From positions 1 to 64,000 of the forward strand of contig NZ_CANNGP010000011.1 of the NCBI RefSeq assembly GCF_947504105.1: DNA of 64,000 nt, in the 5' to 3' direction. Under the pieces are notes generated by a model. The model was given only the letters and a program-made list of their open reading frames with translations. It searched no databases and was not told where the DNA came from. This stretch comes from an uncultured Tateyamaria sp. (GTDB taxonomy: Bacteria; Pseudomonadota; Alphaproteobacteria; Rhodobacterales; Rhodobacteraceae). The position numbers and the translations under genes are program-made. Shown here piece by piece: positions 5,058-16,400 of this stretch (positions within the stretch are counted from its first letter, which is position 1; every line of letters starts with the position of its first letter).

Positions 5058-5837
5058 TCATTGCATTCGCTCTATCATGGGCGTCTCGTCGCTGCGCAGG
5101 GTCAAAACCTCCACACCAGTTTCCGTGACTGCGACTGTATGTTCGAACTGTGCAGAGAGCTTCCGATCCTTGGTCACGACCGTCCATCCATCGCTTTCGG
5201 TGGCGACCATCCGACTGCCCTTGTTGACCATCGGCTCGACGGTGAAGACCATGCCCTCGCGCAGCTTCAAGCCCGTTCCCGGTCGTCCGAAGTTCAGCAC
5301 CTGCGGTTCCTCGTGCATTTCGCGACCGATGCCGTGGCCGCAATATTCCCGTACAACCGAGCAACCGTTCTTTTTGGCGTATCTTTCGATCGCGAAGCCA
5401 ATATCTCCCAGGCGTGCTCCGGGTCGCACCTGTCTTATGCCTTGCCACATCGCCTCCTGGGCGATCCGTACCAGTCGTTTCGCAGGAGGTGGTGCATTGC
5501 CGACCAGATAAGTCTTGCTTGAATCCGCAATGTAGCCATTCTTTTCGAGCGTGATATCGAAATTGACGATATCGCCGTCGCGGATGATCTCGTTCGGGTT
5601 TGGTACGCCGTGGCAAACAACGTGATTGATCGAACAGTTCAGGACATATTTGAAATCATACTGCCCCTTGCTGGCTGGGCGGGCTTCGAGGTCAACGGTG
5701 ATGAAACGGTCGACCAAATCGTTGACCTGCAAGGTCGACATGCCTTCCAGATTTTGTCTGTCCAGCATCTCGAATACCGACGCCAGTAATCTGCCGGATA
5801 CCCGCATCAGATCCAACTCGTCGGGTGTCTTTACCAT
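5058..5837 (-). CDS. map: Type I methionyl aminopeptidase
   Basis: A 259-residue metallopeptidase removing initiator methionine from new proteins. The pita-bread metal ligands are visible: Asp in NFDITLEKNG, Asp in YIADSSKTY, His in GHGIGREMHEEP, Glu in VFTVEPMV and Glu in VAVTETG. NHVVCHGVPN holds the substrate-binding His. There is no N-terminal zinc-finger extension. It starts one base after the stop of the ParD-like gene, so the two are co-transcribed. It may be a second Map, but the housekeeping copy would lie outside the window. The pairing with a ParD-like gene is the unusual point. Confidence 0.95.
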   Translation of the reverse strand: MVKTPDELDLMRVSGRLLASVFEMLDRQNLEGMSTLQVNDLVDRFITVDLEARPASKGQYDFKYVLNCSINHVVCHGVPNPNEIIRDGDIVNFDITLEKNGYIADSSKTYLVGNAPPPAKRLVRIAQEAMWQGIRQVRPGARLGDIGFAIERYAKKNGCSVVREYCGHGIGREMHEEPQVLNFGRPGTGLKLREGMVFTVEPMVNKGSRMVATESDGWTVVTKDRKLSAQFEHTVAVTETGVEVLTLRSDETPMIERMQ

Positions 5838-7566: not shown

Positions 7567-8265
7567 ATGAGCGCGTCCACCCGTGCGCCTAGTGGAGCGG
7601 CCGTGATGCGCCCGTCCGTGACCGATGCACTCGCCCGAGCATTTTTCGAGGAATGGGCGGAGACCGGTCTTGGTGCGCTAAGCCTGGAACGGGTCGCCAA
7701 GCGGGCGGGCGTCGGAAAAGCGGCGCTCTATCGCCGCTGGTCGTCAAAACAGGACATGGCGATCGACCTGATCAAGTCGGTTGGCCTGAACCTTACACCA
7801 ATCCCCGACAGCGGTTCGTTATTGGAGGACCTGCGGTTGATCCTGTTGTCCCTGCGCCGGACGCTTCGCCATCCGCTGATCAGGCGCATTCTGCCTGACC
7901 TGCATGCCGAGATGGCCAGAACCAGCGCATTGAGCGCCGAGATAAGGGACACTCTGCAATATGAGCGCCGCGAACGCGGCAAGGTTATCGTTGATCGGGC
8001 CATCGCGCGTGGTGAGTTACCCGCATGCGCGGACCGAGACCTTGCCAACGATGCGCTTGCAAGCATCCTTTATGCTCGGCCGCGAAGGCCCTTCTACCGT
8101 TCGGATGGCCGGACAGACGTGACGGGTGGCAAGATATTACGCGACCGCAGATCGGGTCATTCCTCGGGGACGCCCGCCCGCCACCAGCCTCCCCGATGGC
8201 CATCAAGGAAACCGACCGCCCCTATCTTCTCAGAGAATAAAACAGAGGCAATGGAATACGCATAA
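7567..8265 (+). CDS. TetR/AcrR family transcriptional regulator, C-terminus doubtful
   Basis: The first 165 residues are a clear TetR repressor: LSLERVAKRAGVGKAALYRRW is the helix-turn-helix, followed by a helical ligand domain reaching DLANDALASILYAR. Beyond about base 8075 the predicted sequence becomes rich in Arg, Pro, Ser and Thr, and the total of 232 residues exceeds the usual 190-210. The end also runs into the 3' end of the opposing Anbu gene, which is itself frameshifted. A frameshift here, natural or from sequencing, is therefore suspected but could not be placed. An alternative start at 7606 has the better ribosome-binding site (GGAG). Confidence 0.8.
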   Translation: MSASTRAPSGAAVMRPSVTDALARAFFEEWAETGLGALSLERVAKRAGVGKAALYRRWSSKQDMAIDLIKSVGLNLTPIPDSGSLLEDLRLILLSLRRTLRHPLIRRILPDLHAEMARTSALSAEIRDTLQYERRERGKVIVDRAIARGELPACADRDLANDALASILYARPRRPFYRSDGRTDVTGGKILRDRRSGHSSGTPARHQPPRWPSRKPTAPIFSENKTEAMEYA

Positions 8266-9066
8266 CCTCGGGGGAGCCCACAGGGCGGGGGCGGAGCCCC
8301 CTAAAACACGTTGTCGCGCAGCGCCTGCGGGATCACTTGAAGGCAAATTCAGGCAATTGATCAAAGGCGACCTTAAGCGCCTGCCCCATCCATTCGATAC
8401 CGTCTGGAAATATGGGTCATCCGCTTCGATCCGCTCGGCATGGGTGATAGACAGGCTGTCGCGATCATAGGTCAAGTAATCAAGTGGCAGGCCCACTGAC
8501 AGGTTCGACTTGATGGTAGAGTCAAAGCTGACCATGAGCAGCTTTACCGCATCCTCAAAACGCATGGTCGGATCATGCGCACGGACGATGATGGGTTTGC
8601 CGTACTTCGCTTCGCCAATCTGGAAAAACGGCGTGTCATCCGAAGCTTCGATGAAGTTCCCTTCGGGATAGACAAGGAAGAGGCGGGGCGGCGATCCCTT
8701 GATCTGCCCGCCGATGATCATGGTTGCGCCAAACGCGCCATCGGCTTCCATGCCCGTTGTGGCGTTGGATTGGATCACCTCTTTCAGCGTCCGCCCAACC
8801 TCTCTCGCGACCTGAAACATAGACGGCGCTTCAAGGATCGACGGGCTGCGATCTTCCGGGGCCTTAGAACGCTCATCCAGAAGCGAGATGACGGATTGCG
8901 TGGTCGCAAGGTTTCCGGCTGTCATGATCACGATGACGCGCTCACCTGGCACCTCCCAAGTGTGCATCTTCTTCACGGTTGATATGTTGTCGACGCCCGC
9001 ATTGGTGCGTGTGTCGGACATAAAAATCAGTCCGGCATCTAACCGCATCCCTACGCAATAGGTCAT
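8230..9066 (-). CDS. Anbu proteasome-type protease, C-terminal frameshift
   Basis: The N-terminal 230 residues match Anbu, the ancestral beta-subunit-like bacterial protease (COG3484): Met is followed directly by the would-be nucleophile Thr (MTYCVGMRLDAGLIF), then SDTRTNAGVD, and RIEADDPYF near the end. The predicted protein has 278 residues, whereas the family has about 245. A shift near base 8402 explains this: the other frame reads GIEWMGQALKVAFDQLPEF and stops at 8333, giving about 244 residues. The final 40 residues as translated here are therefore probably not native. It is the last gene of the ATP-grasp/alpha-E/transglutaminase cluster. Confidence 0.88.
   Translation of the reverse strand: MTYCVGMRLDAGLIFMSDTRTNAGVDNISTVKKMHTWEVPGERVIVIMTAGNLATTQSVISLLDERSKAPEDRSPSILEAPSMFQVAREVGRTLKEVIQSNATTGMEADGAFGATMIIGGQIKGSPPRLFLVYPEGNFIEASDDTPFFQIGEAKYGKPIIVRAHDPTMRFEDAVKLLMVSFDSTIKSNLSVGLPLDYLTYDRDSLSITHAERIEADDPYFQTVSNGWGRRLRSPLINCLNLPSSDPAGAARQRVLGGSAPALWAPPRLCVFHCLCFIL
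8287..8301. repeat. GC hairpin, REP-like, between TetR and Anbu
   Basis: GGGGGC, three bases (GGA), GCCCCC, preceded by CATAACCTCGGGGGAG. The arrangement resembles the intergenic repeats at 25169 and 58944. It suggests that this stretch was originally intergenic, before the two convergent reading frames were extended by frameshift. Confidence 0.5.
8333..8401 (-). other. Displaced native C-terminal frame of Anbu
   Basis: Read on the minus strand from 8401 this frame gives GIEWMGQALKVAFDQLPEF and then a TGA at 8335-8333. This is what an Anbu C-terminus should look like (helix, then short hydrophobic tail). One missing base near 8402-8408 would restore it. Confidence 0.7.
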
Positions 9067-9105
9067 ATCTTGTGTGTCCCCGCCTCTAGTCGCGGCAAAT
9101 CTGCG

Positions 9106-9906
9106 CTATTGCTGCTGCACCTGCAAGGTCACAGACATATCTTCCCCGGCGTTACCATAGCGTAAGCCGGAAATCGGGGCGGCCCCGCGATAGTCAAGGC
9201 CCGTGGCGACACGCACGTAACGTGCGTCGGGCGAGATGCCGTTGGAAATGTCGAACCCCACCCAACCCAAGCCTTCCACATACGCTTCTGCCCAGGCATG
9301 GCTGGCGTCCTGATCGACCCGATCATCCATCATCAGGTATCCCGAAACATAGCGGGCAGGAAACCCGAGTAGGCGGGCCGCCGTGATGAACACATGGGCA
9401 TGGTCCTGGCATACACCATGACCTGCCTGCATCACGGCTTCTGCCGTGAGGTCAGAGGCCGTCTGATCAGTTGAGTAAGGCACCTGTTCAAGAACATGGG
9501 CGGACAGGGCGTGCAGCCGATCCAGATCGCTGCAGTTTGCGGGCGCCCTGTCTGCCAACGCCTGCACGTGCTCACCCGGTGTGGTCAGCACCGTACTGCG
9601 CCGGAACAGCCACAAGGGAACATATCCGCCTTGCGGTCCTACAATACCCGCCTTGTCTTCGACATCGACAATGCCGGCACAAGTGATCTCAATCTCGGTC
9701 TGGCCCGACGCGAAGCTGACCAGATCAACTGCATTTGCGTGTTCATCTTCGAACGACACCTCTACCTGCCCCCCGGTCACATCGATACGCCATTCTTCGA
9801 CCAATTGACCAAGGCGGGACTTGGGACGCAGGCGGACCTGCTGCAGCCCGTATGGAACAGGCGCGTCGTAGGTGTAGTGGGTTTTGTGAAGAACGTTCAG
9901 GCGCAT
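9106..9906 (-). CDS. Transglutaminase-like cysteine protease family protein (Anbu cluster)
   Basis: A 266-residue COG1305 protein. Residues 1-100 form the N-terminal beta domain (THYTYDAPVPYGLQQVRLRP). The transglutaminase core follows with the catalytic Cys in AGHGVCQDHAHV, His in DASHAWAEAYV and Asp in GFDISNG. The start MRLNVLHKTHY is preferred to a longer frame because it lies four bases after the alpha-E stop and the family begins here. In this gene cluster such proteins are predicted to cleave or form isopeptide bonds on peptides made by the ATP-grasp enzyme (Iyer and colleagues' amidoligase analysis); direct evidence is lacking. Confidence 0.93.
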   Translation of the reverse strand: MRLNVLHKTHYTYDAPVPYGLQQVRLRPKSRLGQLVEEWRIDVTGGQVEVSFEDEHANAVDLVSFASGQTEIEITCAGIVDVEDKAGIVGPQGGYVPLWLFRRSTVLTTPGEHVQALADRAPANCSDLDRLHALSAHVLEQVPYSTDQTASDLTAEAVMQAGHGVCQDHAHVFITAARLLGFPARYVSGYLMMDDRVDQDASHAWAEAYVEGLGWVGFDISNGISPDARYVRVATGLDYRGAAPISGLRYGNAGEDMSVTLQVQQQ

Positions 9907-9910
9907 GGGG

Positions 9911-10852
9911 TCATTCAATAAACCGGTAGTCGATTTCGATCTGGCGACCCAGAGCCGCGCTGTCCCGCAGGAAATCCGTGATGAATTCATGCAGGCCATA
10001 ATCAAAGATGGCGTTCATGTCGTGCGCCTTGAACTTCGAGCACAGGGCATCGGAAAGGGACTGGCAGGTGTGGCGGGTCTCGTATTCGTGCTCCAGATAG
10101 CCGAGGTTGTCGCCGATCTTGCCATAGCAAAAGGCTAGGCTGCGCGGCAGGCGACCGTCAAGGATCAGGAACTTTGCGATCGCTTTGGGGTCCACCTCTC
10201 CGTCGTGCAGGGTTTGGTAGGCCCGTGTCGTTGATGTGGCGCGCAGGATCGTGTCCCACTGCACGTTGTCGGATGGGCTGCCCACCAGCCGGACCGAGGG
10301 CAGCAGGATGTAGTATTTCTGATCAAGGATGCGCGCCGTGTTGTCAGCCCGTTCGAAAAAGGTGCCGATCCGGGCAAAGTTATAGATGTGGTTGCGCACC
10401 ATCGTGCCGTGCAGCGCCCCGCGCACAAAAGCGCTGCGTTGACGGATCACTTGCAGCACCCGCGGCAGATCGCGGTCTTGGACTTGCTGAGCCAACAGTC
10501 GCTTCAGCACCATGTAGCACTCGTTCACCGCCTCCCACACCTCGCGGGTGAGCGCCGTGCGCACAACCCGGGCATTCATGCGCGCGGCTTCGATCCCTGC
10601 CATGATCGAGCCGGGGTTGTTCGGGTCGCGCAGCAGGAAGTCGATCACCTTTGGGCCATCGGGCGCGCCGTGTATCTCGGAATATGCTGCGCTCAGGCCG
10701 GTTGAGGACAGGATTGACGTCCATTCACTTTCTGCAGCGCTCGATCGCGTCAGCGAAATGCGCAGCCCCGCGTCAATCATACGTGCGGTGTTCTCGGCCC
10801 GTTCGAGATAGCGGAACATCCAGAAGAGCCCGCCCGCGGTCTTGCCCAGCAT
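9911..10852 (-). CDS. Alpha-E domain-containing protein
   Basis: A 313-residue all-helical COG2307 protein opening with the hallmark LFWMFRYLERAENTARM. The family has no experimentally settled activity and almost always accompanies a circularly permuted ATP-grasp enzyme, sometimes fused to it, which suggests it supplies or binds a substrate for ligation. The gene is four bases after the ATP-grasp stop and four before the transglutaminase start, so the three are one operon with Anbu downstream. Confidence 0.95.
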   Translation of the reverse strand: MLGKTAGGLFWMFRYLERAENTARMIDAGLRISLTRSSAAESEWTSILSSTGLSAAYSEIHGAPDGPKVIDFLLRDPNNPGSIMAGIEAARMNARVVRTALTREVWEAVNECYMVLKRLLAQQVQDRDLPRVLQVIRQRSAFVRGALHGTMVRNHIYNFARIGTFFERADNTARILDQKYYILLPSVRLVGSPSDNVQWDTILRATSTTRAYQTLHDGEVDPKAIAKFLILDGRLPRSLAFCYGKIGDNLGYLEHEYETRHTCQSLSDALCSKFKAHDMNAIFDYGLHEFITDFLRDSAALGRQIEIDYRFIE

Positions 10853-10856
10853 CGCG

Positions 10857-12284
10857 CTACTCCTCCAGCACCCAGGTGTCCTTGGTCCCGCCGCCCTGCG
10901 ACGAGTTCACGACCAGCGACCCTTCGGTCAGGGCTACACGTGTCAGTCCACCGGGCGTGATGTCGATCCGGTCAGGCGAGACAAGGACAAAGGGGCGCAA
11001 ATCCACGTGGCGCGGCGCAAGGCCCGCATCTGTTAGGATCGGCACGGTAGACAGGGCCAAAGTCGGTTGAGCGATGTAGTTACCGGGGGCGGCCTCTAGC
11101 TTGGCGCGGAATTCTTCGATCTCTTTCTTCGATGCCGCAGGGCCGACAAGCATCCCGTAACCGCCCGAGCCGTGCACCTCTTTCACCACCAGATCGGCAA
11201 GGTTGTCGAGTACGTATTTCAGGGCCTGCGGTTCCGAGCAGCGATGCGTCGGTACGTTTTGCAGAATTGCCTTTTCGCCGGTGTAGAATTCGACGATGTC
11301 CGGCATGTAGCTGTAGATCGCCTTGTCATCGGCAATGCCGGTGCCGGGTGCGTTGGCAATTGTGATCCCGCCGGCGCGGTAGACATCCATGATGCCGGGT
11401 ACACCCAAAACGCTGTCCGGGTTGAAGTTCAGCGGATCGAGGTATTCATCGTCCACCCGGCGATACAGCACATCGATGGGCTTGTAGCCCCGCGTGGTCC
11501 GCATCGCCACGCGCCCGTCTACGACGCGCAAATCATGCCCTTCGACCAGCTCGGCGCTCATTTGATCGGCAAGGAACGCGTGCTCGTAATAGGCCGAGTT
11601 GTGGATGCCCGGCGTCAGCACCGCGATGGTTGGACGACCGTTGCAGGCATCCGGCGCGCAGGCTGAAAGAGACTTGCGCAATGAACGGGGGTACTGGCCG
11701 ACAGATTGCACTTTGATCTTGCTGAACAGCTCCGGGAACATGTGCAGCATCGTCTCGCGGTTTTCGAGCATGTAGCTCACACCCGAAGGGGTGCGCGCGT
11801 TGTCTTCCAAAACAAAGAACTCGTCATCCCCGGTGCGCACCAGATCGGTGCCAACGATATGTGTATAGATGTCGCCGGGGGGCGAGACGCCGATCATCTC
11901 AGGCAGGAAAGCATCGTTGCGCGCGATCATCTCGGCCGGCAGGCGGCCTGCGCGCACGATCTCTTGTCGGTGGTAGATGTCATGCAGAAACGCGTTCAAT
12001 GCCCGCACGCGTTGTTCTATCCCCTTGGCGACTTTGGCCCACTCGCGGGCGGCGATGATGCGCGGGACCAGATCGAAAGGGATCAACCGTTCGGTGGCGT
12101 CTGGATCGCCGTAGACGTTGAAGGTCACGCCGATCAATCGGAACAGCGCTTCGGCTTCCTCTGACTTGGACAGCAGGCGCGCCGTGTCCTCGTGTTGGAA
12201 CCAATCGCAATAATCGGCATAGGGGGCACGTGCTGCCGTGCCATGGCCAAACATCTCGTCAAAATACGTGGGTCTTCCTGCCAT
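10857..12284 (-). CDS. Circularly permuted type 2 ATP-grasp protein
   Basis: A 475-residue COG2308 protein. Visible features are FDEMFGHG at the N-terminus, VLEDNARTPSGVSYMLENR, VLTPGIHNSAYYEHAFLA, the glycine-rich nucleotide loop HGSGGYGMLVGP and the C-terminal NSSQGGGTKDTW. The ATG at 12284 is chosen because the family begins MxxRxTYFDEM and AAAGG precedes it. ATP-grasp enzymes of this type are predicted amide ligases that make short peptides or peptide tags. It leads the Anbu operon. The ligated substrate is unknown. Confidence 0.94.
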   Translation of the reverse strand: MAGRPTYFDEMFGHGTAARAPYADYCDWFQHEDTARLLSKSEEAEALFRLIGVTFNVYGDPDATERLIPFDLVPRIIAAREWAKVAKGIEQRVRALNAFLHDIYHRQEIVRAGRLPAEMIARNDAFLPEMIGVSPPGDIYTHIVGTDLVRTGDDEFFVLEDNARTPSGVSYMLENRETMLHMFPELFSKIKVQSVGQYPRSLRKSLSACAPDACNGRPTIAVLTPGIHNSAYYEHAFLADQMSAELVEGHDLRVVDGRVAMRTTRGYKPIDVLYRRVDDEYLDPLNFNPDSVLGVPGIMDVYRAGGITIANAPGTGIADDKAIYSYMPDIVEFYTGEKAILQNVPTHRCSEPQALKYVLDNLADLVVKEVHGSGGYGMLVGPAASKKEIEEFRAKLEAAPGNYIAQPTLALSTVPILTDAGLAPRHVDLRPFVLVSPDRIDITPGGLTRVALTEGSLVVNSSQGGGTKDTWVLEE

Positions 12285-12516
12285 GACCTTTAGCCTGTAT
12301 ATTCTTGGCGTGGTCGCAACAAAAAGGGCGTAAATGCCGTGGTTTGCCTGAAATACTGTCGAATAATCAGGCATTTGTCGCAGCAGATGTCTCGTTTGGG
12401 CTACCTTGTGCCAATAGTGGCGCAGCTGCGTGCAAACAGGCTCCGTGCGCGGGCGCACTGGACGTTTCGCCGGGTTTCAGGGACGATATCGCAAAGCATT
12501 CACATTAAGGCGCCTC

Positions 12517-14756: not shown

Positions 14757-16400
14757 ATGAAAGATCATGTCCCGTATACAGAGCCTTTGCGCCCACCCGA
14801 AACGGTGATGCGCCTTGCACGCATGGGACAAATGATGCCCACGCGGCTCAGCTTTTTGCGGGTTCTAGTCCGGCGCCTCTGCGCCGAGCACGCCACTATC
14901 CGGCGTATTCACTGGAAGATGTCGGCCGATGGACATGGGCAAGCGGCCTATGCTGTTGACCTTGGGGGGCATACCTATTCCCTGGTTGCCATCTCGAATG
15001 ACCTGCCAGCCGATCAACGCAGCGACAGGGTGATCGCAACGGCGTGGGACGCCGCCTTTGTCCTGTTTGATGGAATCGCGACGCCAACCGATATTGCCCG
15101 CATCGCCGAACAGGCCCCGAAACAAGAGGCAGGCCGGTTCAGCCCGCGCGACCTTGTCCTCAGCCGTGCCAACAAATCGGTGCGGATGTGGGAAGCGACG
15201 GTGGCCGCATTGCGGACGGGGCAGCAACCTGAGAGTGGCATGATCCGCGACATCGGGTATTTGATGCGCACCACCGCGGTCTACGGGAATGGCAAGTTCG
15301 GGATCGCGGACCGCACGTTGATCGCGGACCGTCCGGGGCTCGAGGGACCCTTTGCTGCCGAAATGCTGACGGTTTACCTGATCCGGCATTTCACTCTGGA
15401 TCTGGTGCAGCACGTGGGCGGTGGGACACTTGATCCAGACCTTGCGCGGCACATCGGCATTGGCAATGCCACGGGGCTCGGTATGGCCCCTTTCCTGGTC
15501 AACCACCCGGTGTTGCTGAACAACTGGATACAGGCGCGCGAAACGGCCCTCGCACGGGTGCTGGCACGCGAAACGATGACAAAGGCACAGGCGCTGCGGA
15601 TCAAGACCCTCGCGCAACGGGCACAAAAGCATTTGGCCGATTGGCATGTCCCGGCAGAGGATCACGACAACGTGCTGCGGCGACTGGAAGAGGATTGGGC
15701 AATCTTCCTGATGCACTTTGATGCTTTGCCAGGGCATCGCCCCTTTGCCGCGCTCTGGGAGGCAGCCCGAGATGAAATGGCCAGCTTGCAAGAACTACTG
15801 GCCGCACTGCTGATCGAAGTTTGCCCCGAGGATGTTGACGATCTGGTCGACGGCATGGGGGATCGATTTGGCCCTCTCATCGTCCCTTTTGCAGACACGG
15901 ACGTGCTCCGGGCCGCGATTAAGGCCGACTGGGCTTGGGCCCTCGCCCATGACTATGAAGACACCGAGCAGTGCCGCCGTTTCTGGTATGTGAGTGAGGC
16001 CAAGTTGGAACCACGGCTAGGCGATCGCTTTGCCGAGCCAGGAGCGGAATTGGAAACGCCGCTCGACATCGCGCGCCGTGTTGCGCGCCTGCATGCCGAC
16101 CTTCCGGATCGTGCGCAACCAGTGTCGGAATTCACTGCACACCACCCCGATCACGCACATGCCATCAATCGCGTCGCCCTTCTAAGCCGTTATCCTTATG
16201 CGGAAATCCGCGACAACCTGATTGCTGCGACCTGTCGCCCCATTGATATGCTTCGTTGCAAGCTCAGTTTCTTTGGGGCAACAAAGTTTGATCCCAAGTC
16301 TGACCTGTGGACACGTATCACGTTGGCGCAGGGCGCGCCGCTTGGGGACGAACTGCGTCCCGAGATGGATGATTGGTGGCTTCCGGCGATGGAGCGATGA
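14757..16400 (+). CDS. Conserved protein of unknown function, 547 residues
   Basis: I do not recognise a named domain. The protein is soluble, without signal peptide or membrane segments, and mostly helical. It opens with a 40-residue basic stretch (RLARMGQMMPTRLSFLRVL). It contains VRMWEATVAALRTGQ and a conserved-looking block GMIRDIGYLMRTTAVYGNGKFG. The C-terminal CRPIDMLRCKLSFFGATKFDP looks structured. It follows the acyl-CoA dehydrogenase by 88 bp and overlaps the next gene by ATGA, so the three or four genes probably act together. An enzyme partner or adaptor role is possible but unsupported. Confidence 0.85.
   Translation: MKDHVPYTEPLRPPETVMRLARMGQMMPTRLSFLRVLVRRLCAEHATIRRIHWKMSADGHGQAAYAVDLGGHTYSLVAISNDLPADQRSDRVIATAWDAAFVLFDGIATPTDIARIAEQAPKQEAGRFSPRDLVLSRANKSVRMWEATVAALRTGQQPESGMIRDIGYLMRTTAVYGNGKFGIADRTLIADRPGLEGPFAAEMLTVYLIRHFTLDLVQHVGGGTLDPDLARHIGIGNATGLGMAPFLVNHPVLLNNWIQARETALARVLARETMTKAQALRIKTLAQRAQKHLADWHVPAEDHDNVLRRLEEDWAIFLMHFDALPGHRPFAALWEAARDEMASLQELLAALLIEVCPEDVDDLVDGMGDRFGPLIVPFADTDVLRAAIKADWAWALAHDYEDTEQCRRFWYVSEAKLEPRLGDRFAEPGAELETPLDIARRVARLHADLPDRAQPVSEFTAHHPDHAHAINRVALLSRYPYAEIRDNLIAATCRPIDMLRCKLSFFGATKFDPKSDLWTRITLAQGAPLGDELRPEMDDWWLPAMER

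Follow-up and report, generated by a model that had tools for sequence, protein, structure and literature searches.

Anbu operons have been described in Yersinia bercovieri, Pseudomonas aeruginosa and Pseudomonas putida (PP_2685-2688), in which the genes for an ATP-grasp ligase, an alpha-E protein, a transglutaminase-like enzyme and the proteasome-related protein Anbu follow one another in this order (PMC6376114; here and below, statements taken from the literature refer to the available parts of the cited reports). The idea that such a set makes and removes a peptide tag or a metabolite, which was repeated in a preliminary description of the DNA studied here, was put forward by Iyer et al. 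2009, according to the citations in PMC6376114 and PMC5666114. In Burkholderia cenocepacia, the genes I35_5080-5083 likewise bring together an ATP-grasp (DUF404/407), an alpha-E (DUF403) and a transglutaminase-like protein, but instead of Anbu their fourth member is reported to be a large transglutaminase-like protein, and they depend on NtrC and sigma54 (PMC5491218). Here we analyze a four-gene set located in a stretch of 64,000 nucleotides from an uncultured Tateyamaria sp. (contig NZ_CANNGP010000011.1, positions 1 to 64,000; hereafter the window, to which all coordinates refer unless a locus is named). The set is almost certainly an Anbu operon of the standard type, and the window copy is an ordinary member of the operon already published, in its published order. 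It has the four families and their order in common with the Yersinia and Pseudomonas operons, together with the Anbu residues T1, D17 and K32, and its own Anbu is closely related to the five sequences with solved structures. It differs from these operons in that the C-terminal helix of its Anbu is out of frame, and in that its upstream region bears, instead of a strong sigma54-like site, the element TTGC-N18-CAGGCT on the start codon.

Identity and layout of the four genes

The genes lie on the minus strand, from 12284 down to about 8333, in the order ATP-grasp, alpha-E, transglutaminase-like and Anbu. This order, given already in the preliminary description, was confirmed by Pfam families, reading frames and the solved-structure relatives found for three of the four proteins (ATP-grasp, transglutaminase-like and Anbu), with matches far above chance. 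The first gene (10857..12284, minus strand) encodes a circularly permuted ATP-grasp ligase of 475 amino acids (aa; PF14403, 544.6 bits; PF04174, 476.2 bits), in which the ATP-grasp profile is covered in full length (1-374 of 374) and which has the solved relative 3n6x (E 2.1e-191). Its longest mechanical frame opens earlier, at 12458; the start was set at the ATG at 12284, from which the translation begins MAGRPTYFDEMF, because relatives align from there. No other ATP-grasp was found in the window's genome, and the type in which ATP-grasp and alpha-E are fused is absent there.

The second gene (9911..10852, minus strand) encodes an alpha-E protein of 313 aa that matches PF04168 (290.4 bits) over nearly the full length of the profile (1-293 of 294). 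It consists of a tandem pair of repeats, both of which contain an ER motif: its halves were aligned by hhalign with a probability of 97% and 31% identity over 84 columns, BLASTP of one half against the other gave an E of 6e-10 without composition correction, and both motifs, E17 R18 and E167 R168, are invariant among 51 aligned alpha-E sequences. Its AlphaFold2 model consists of helices throughout, with a mean predicted local distance difference test score (pLDDT) of 88.8 and a predicted template modelling score (pTM) of 0.88. A comparison with PDB sequences revealed no solved relative up to E 1, a Foldseek search of the model against 350,542 PDB chains reached no better than E 0.81, so that no fold passed the cut-off of E 0.001, and work on the structure of alpha-E was not among the papers listed by literature searches. 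The survey of the family covered 120 genomes, chosen from a larger group so that each genus is represented once; by a hand count from tables, 31 of them encode ATP-grasp and alpha-E fused in a single open frame, and alpha-E is therefore tied to the ligase. The fused type (about 800 aa or more) has the same domains as the two window proteins, but joined in one protein, and its ATP-grasp part is 26-29% identical to that of the window, as measured in six loci (L036, L038, L043, L141, L145 and L165).

The third gene (9106..9906, minus strand) encodes a transglutaminase-like cysteine enzyme of 266 aa with the triad C166-H203-D219 (PF01841, 88.2 bits; PF08379, 64.8 bits; PDB 3isr, E 3.8e-11). Across 104 transglutaminase loci compared, the triad reads C-H-D in 102 and A-H-D in one, and one gave no letters. 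The enzyme is absent from its slot in four genomes (G008, G015, G039 and G078), where a distant one (25-29% identity) stands divergently beside ATP-grasp. Because the slot is swappable, the activity, not one particular protein, seems to be needed. The window's own genome encodes, away from the operon, one more protein that has the bacterial transglutaminase N-terminal domain (G000:C57:1600-1833). Two genes of other genomes, the ATP-grasp of G049 (L149, 7493-8913) and the transglutaminase of G121 (L154, 5246-6042), align as two pieces each, which may reflect a frame change, an alignment break or a draft error.

The in-frame part of the fourth gene (8386..9066, minus strand; PF00227, 30.8 bits) comprises Met and the mature residues 1-226 of Anbu, and it matches the solved Anbu sequences 5loy, 5nyj, 5nyf, 5nyw and 5lox with E from 2.2e-93 to 1.4e-66, the designed Anbu 5loy being the best match. 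The preliminary description implied that a catalytic signature is missing from this protein; on the contrary, the features of an N-terminal-threonine hydrolase, T1, D17 and K32, are present, and the threonine is predicted to be exposed by loss of the Met. Among 108 Anbu loci compared, these letters are T-D-K in 104 and S-D-K in 2, and none were readable in the remaining 2. At the places of the S1 pocket given for the Anbu-1 subtype (T20, F30, T48, L52 and S55; PMC5666114), the window protein has T, V, T, L and T, which differs from the basic pocket described for Anbu-2. The genome encodes one Anbu; the other match to the proteasome family lies on contig C2 and presumably represents HslV.

The intergenic gaps are 4, 4 and 39 bases, with the transglutaminase start at 9906, and the same values were obtained as medians for those same-genus loci (17 of 18) that have the full order. 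The 4-bp spacings reported in the preliminary description thus hold for the first two gaps but not for the third, before Anbu. The tight spacing, the conserved order and a promoter-like element before the first gene alone make it likely that the four genes form one operon.

Change of frame at the end of the Anbu gene

The usual C-terminal end of Anbu and its stop are found at 8333..8383 (minus strand), but in another frame than the rest of the gene. The final 16 residues, QALKVAFDQLPEFAFK, and the stop at 8333-8335 are intact; the frame changes at about 8384, after residue W226, beyond which an unrelated, out-of-frame tail continues to 8230. Hence the cluster, previously called complete and drawn down to 8230, lacks its final Anbu helix in frame in the window sequence, and its low end belongs to the tail. 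Anbu of P. aeruginosa devoid of residues 227-242 did not assemble, and the long C-terminal helix holds the rings together (PMC5666114). This helix, the feature expected for split-ring assembly, is not in frame in the sequence as given; should the shift be an error of the draft, it would be in place. Since the last helix is out of frame, Anbu made from the exact sequence is not expected to assemble, unless the shift is such an error.

The usual kind of end is in frame in all 109 other Anbu loci (80 named ones plus 29 from family genomes, some genomes having been reached twice) and in 18 of 18 same-genus loci, which leaves two readings of the shift, a mutation that arose very recently and, with greater likelihood, an error of the assembly. 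Pairwise alignment placed a single-base difference at 8383-8388 against each of three same-genus relatives. That the change is an error of assembly or sequencing and the gene is whole in life is fairly probable in our judgment, and this would be compatible with any functional reading of the operon. It is supported by the draft state of the genome (214 contigs), by the location of the change within a run of G and by the undamaged tail in the other frame. Furthermore, 68 of the 72 Anbu codons that differ from those of the closest relative, G120, are synonymous, and the gene was therefore under strong constraint until recently. On the other hand, the remainder of the approximately 7 kb compared gave no sign of a high error rate: the other insertions and deletions are intergenic, multiples of three or compensating pairs (12268/12275 against L152 and 14960/14972 against L151), with one further uncompensated single-base difference against L152 at 13433, at the start of an acyl-CoA dehydrogenase gene. 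A programmed frameshift was rejected, as none of the relatives examined has the frame change. A genuine change would mean that, among related natural strains, some have an Anbu able to assemble and others do not.

Distribution and inheritance of the gene set

The named loci compared are the best 80 of at least 591 stretches encoding an Anbu relative, and the closest of them by Anbu are from Tateyamaria (L002, L003, L004 and L009). Gene adjacency was counted in the named and same-genus loci. Anbu was found in 83 of the 120 family genomes, alpha-E in 88 and ATP-grasp in 87, while 32 have none of the three. All 83 genomes with Anbu have alpha-E and 82 have ATP-grasp, the sole exception being G119, in which the cluster runs off a contig end; the co-occurrence gave a Fisher p of about 3e-24, ignoring kinship. 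Alpha-E and ATP-grasp occur without Anbu in five genomes (G017, G030, G048, G059 and G083), in one of which (G030) the cluster is cut by a contig end. At the level of the genus, Anbu is present in 19 of 20 genomes. The operon genes are thus a unit of inheritance across one family, which agrees with their earlier designation as a known conserved gene set.

The full order is kept in 74 of the 80 named loci, with median gaps of 4, 4 and 30 bases, and in 17 of the 18 same-genus loci. Among the six named loci without it, two (L047 and L054) are truncated where their contigs end, in three (L036, L038 and L043) Anbu adjoins the fused ATP-grasp/alpha-E gene, and in L079 Anbu stands alone; the genomes of the latter four have a separate ATP-grasp and alpha-E elsewhere. 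A full exchange of partners in the loci where Anbu lies by a fused cluster (L036, L038, L043 and G123) was considered and weakened, since all four keep a separate ATP-grasp and alpha-E elsewhere. A conserved fifth gene was rejected: apart from frames antisense to the operon itself, which made up the largest groups (up to 25 loci), no neighbour is common to more than 9 of the 80 named loci, and those that recur mostly reflect rhizobial local synteny. The neighbour frames were picked as the longest ones of at least 130 aa, a procedure by which genes hidden under longer spurious frames can escape notice.

An Anbu-less row in G017 (L141, 4480-14082) contains a separate ATP-grasp and alpha-E, a large transglutaminase of 1096 aa, a fused ATP-grasp/alpha-E and a second transglutaminase. 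Against the same-genus genome G131, window positions 8900-10850 are 92-99% identical, mostly 98-99%, whereas the 3' part of Anbu is about 81% and ATP-grasp about 93% identical; this mosaic suggests recombination inside the operon.

Upstream region of the operon

A promoter-like element, TTGC-N18-CAGGCT, was read by eye in the window at 12292..12319 (minus strand), where it ends 7 bases before the ATG of ATP-grasp. This element or close variants of it are common to near same-genus loci, ending about 6-7 bases upstream of the ATG, and the pattern is present in 15 of 18 same-genus loci (L150-L164, but not L165-L167). The pattern was written down after the sequences had been viewed, so its counts are exploratory. 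It precedes ATP-grasp in 15/71 named loci and 16/33 genome loci, two sets that share some genomes, as compared with 31/30412 ATGs and 5/644 first starts of long frames taken as controls, neither of which was cleared of ATP-grasp starts. Within the named loci, it was found before none of the other genes (alpha-E, 0/74; transglutaminase, 0/76; Anbu, 0/80), and beyond the near relatives most named loci are without it. From the position of the pattern, an almost leaderless ATP-grasp mRNA is possible, and its presence before ATP-grasp alone fits a single promoter for all four genes, without proving it.

Possible function of the operon

We tentatively read the Anbu operon as a nitrogen-linked system that may make and split an amide or a peptide; the class of the ATP-grasp enzyme comes from its sequence, whereas we infer the substrates, direction and purpose. 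The ATP-grasp ligase, with alpha-E as its partner domain, would use ATP to join a carboxylic acid and an amine into a short peptide or amide. Judging from fold and catalytic residues, the transglutaminase-like cysteine enzyme would move or open the bond so formed, and Anbu, as an N-terminal-threonine hydrolase of the proteasome kind, would split it inside its split ring. Expression in other Proteobacteria suggests that the set would be used mainly under nitrogen shortage and might serve to capture or recycle amine nitrogen. In P. putida, the log2 fold change on nitrate versus ammonium was 4.44 for Anbu (PP_2685) and 3.99 for ATP-grasp (PP_2688) (PMC8050072), and PP2685-2687 were up under nitrogen as compared with carbon limitation (PMC3325844). 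With the Burkholderia set, these are three studies in two genera, and they point to nitrogen shortage as the state under which the product should be sought. Moreover, the same domains, without Anbu, were associated with urea metabolism in marine metagenomes (PMC3597751), and the Yersinia ATP-grasp released phosphate from ATP (PMC6376114).

Several points weigh against this reading. In the genome studied here, Anbu is out of frame at its end, and a scan of 70 upstream regions, the window's included, detected no strong sigma54-like site (at least 9 of 11 matches), in contrast to the NtrC/sigma54 control of the Burkholderia set and to a survey of the sigma54 regulon that lists COG3484 (PMC12316311); 1400 random stretches also gave none, so that this test excludes a strong site only. 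Under looser sigma54/NtrC criteria, applied to the window along with 15 same-genus loci, weak matches were scattered over some relatives and the window had none. Since the fourth Burkholderia gene is described as other than Anbu, the nitrogen control seen there bears on a set related to this one. The gap between ATP-grasp and alpha-E is 0-20 bases in just 41 of the 74 ordered loci, overlapping in 9, with a range of -7 to 474. As to the proteins themselves, the available text of PMC6376114 reports that YbAnbu, PaAnbu and HyAnbu cleaved 0/3 proteasome substrates, that no peptidase activity was detected for Y. bercovieri Anbu and that the Yersinia operon proteins showed no specific interaction among them. 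PMC5666114, in turn, reads inhibitor binding as a sign of protein breakdown, calls peptide synthesis less likely and cites data in which expression was unchanged under various conditions. In its available parts, the literature on the operon names no product or substrate, so that firm clues are valuable; the window copy adds none that settles the matter. What should be useful to others is the co-inheritance within one family, the fusion of alpha-E with the ligase and the lack of a solved alpha-E relative by sequence or fold in the searches above.

The same inhibitor binding and the many-site ring (PMC5666114) would also suit a role in protein tagging and breakdown, in which ATP-grasp and the transglutaminase would put a peptide on proteins and Anbu would remove the tag or degrade the tagged protein. 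We regard this as rather unlikely. Two enzymes of amide-bond chemistry do adjoin a proteasome-like gene, and tagging is among the hypotheses given in PMC6376114. Nevertheless, the operon contains no AAA+ unfoldase, and the named loci share no neighbour beyond the level stated above. The uncleaved proteasome substrates also speak against tagging, as does the report that Anbu is up in nitrogen starvation, not heat shock (PMC6376114).

The induction under nitrogen limitation (PMC8050072 and PMC3325844) is equally what would be expected if Anbu alone carried out bulk proteolysis in nitrogen starvation while the other genes, under a shared promoter, performed a nitrogen task of their own, and Anbu does stand apart from the other three genes in some genomes (L079 and G066). 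However, alpha-E accompanies Anbu in all 83 Anbu genomes of the 120, and the lack of detected peptidase activity (PMC6376114) does not suit a bulk protease, which makes such a division of labour quite unlikely.

A more far-reaching form of the nitrogen-linked reading would take alpha-E as a new duplicated all-helical fold and the second half of a two-part ligase, with an ER site in each repeat, the operon as a nitrogen-shortage cycle that fixes amine nitrogen, with Anbu releasing it, and the strain as a natural mutant whose ligase half is whole and whose Anbu is unable to assemble. Taken together, these propositions are very unlikely to hold. Conflict systems are among the places where genes of the ATP-grasp, transglutaminase-like and proteasome-like kinds are found, and the set might accordingly be seen as an anti-phage defence cluster. 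Yet a profile search gave 0 matches to PADLOC families for the four operon proteins, and relatives of the set are under nitrogen regulation (PMC5491218, PMC8050072 and PMC3325844); we therefore consider a defence function extremely improbable.

Flanking region

Upstream of the operon, an open frame of 547 aa (14757-16400, plus strand) was matched by neither Pfam nor NCBIfam at E 0.001. The DNA alignment with the three same-genus relatives ends at position 8269, shortly past Anbu on its downstream side, and the region beyond it, which includes a TetR and a methionyl aminopeptidase gene, was not found in the few kb next to Anbu in these relatives. Two frames in this region are, by their look, presumably SnoaL-like and NmrA-like. 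The methionyl aminopeptidase, at 5058-5837, is of type I and one of three in the genome above the family cut-off; its nearness to Anbu, which needs its Met removed, is probably due to chance.

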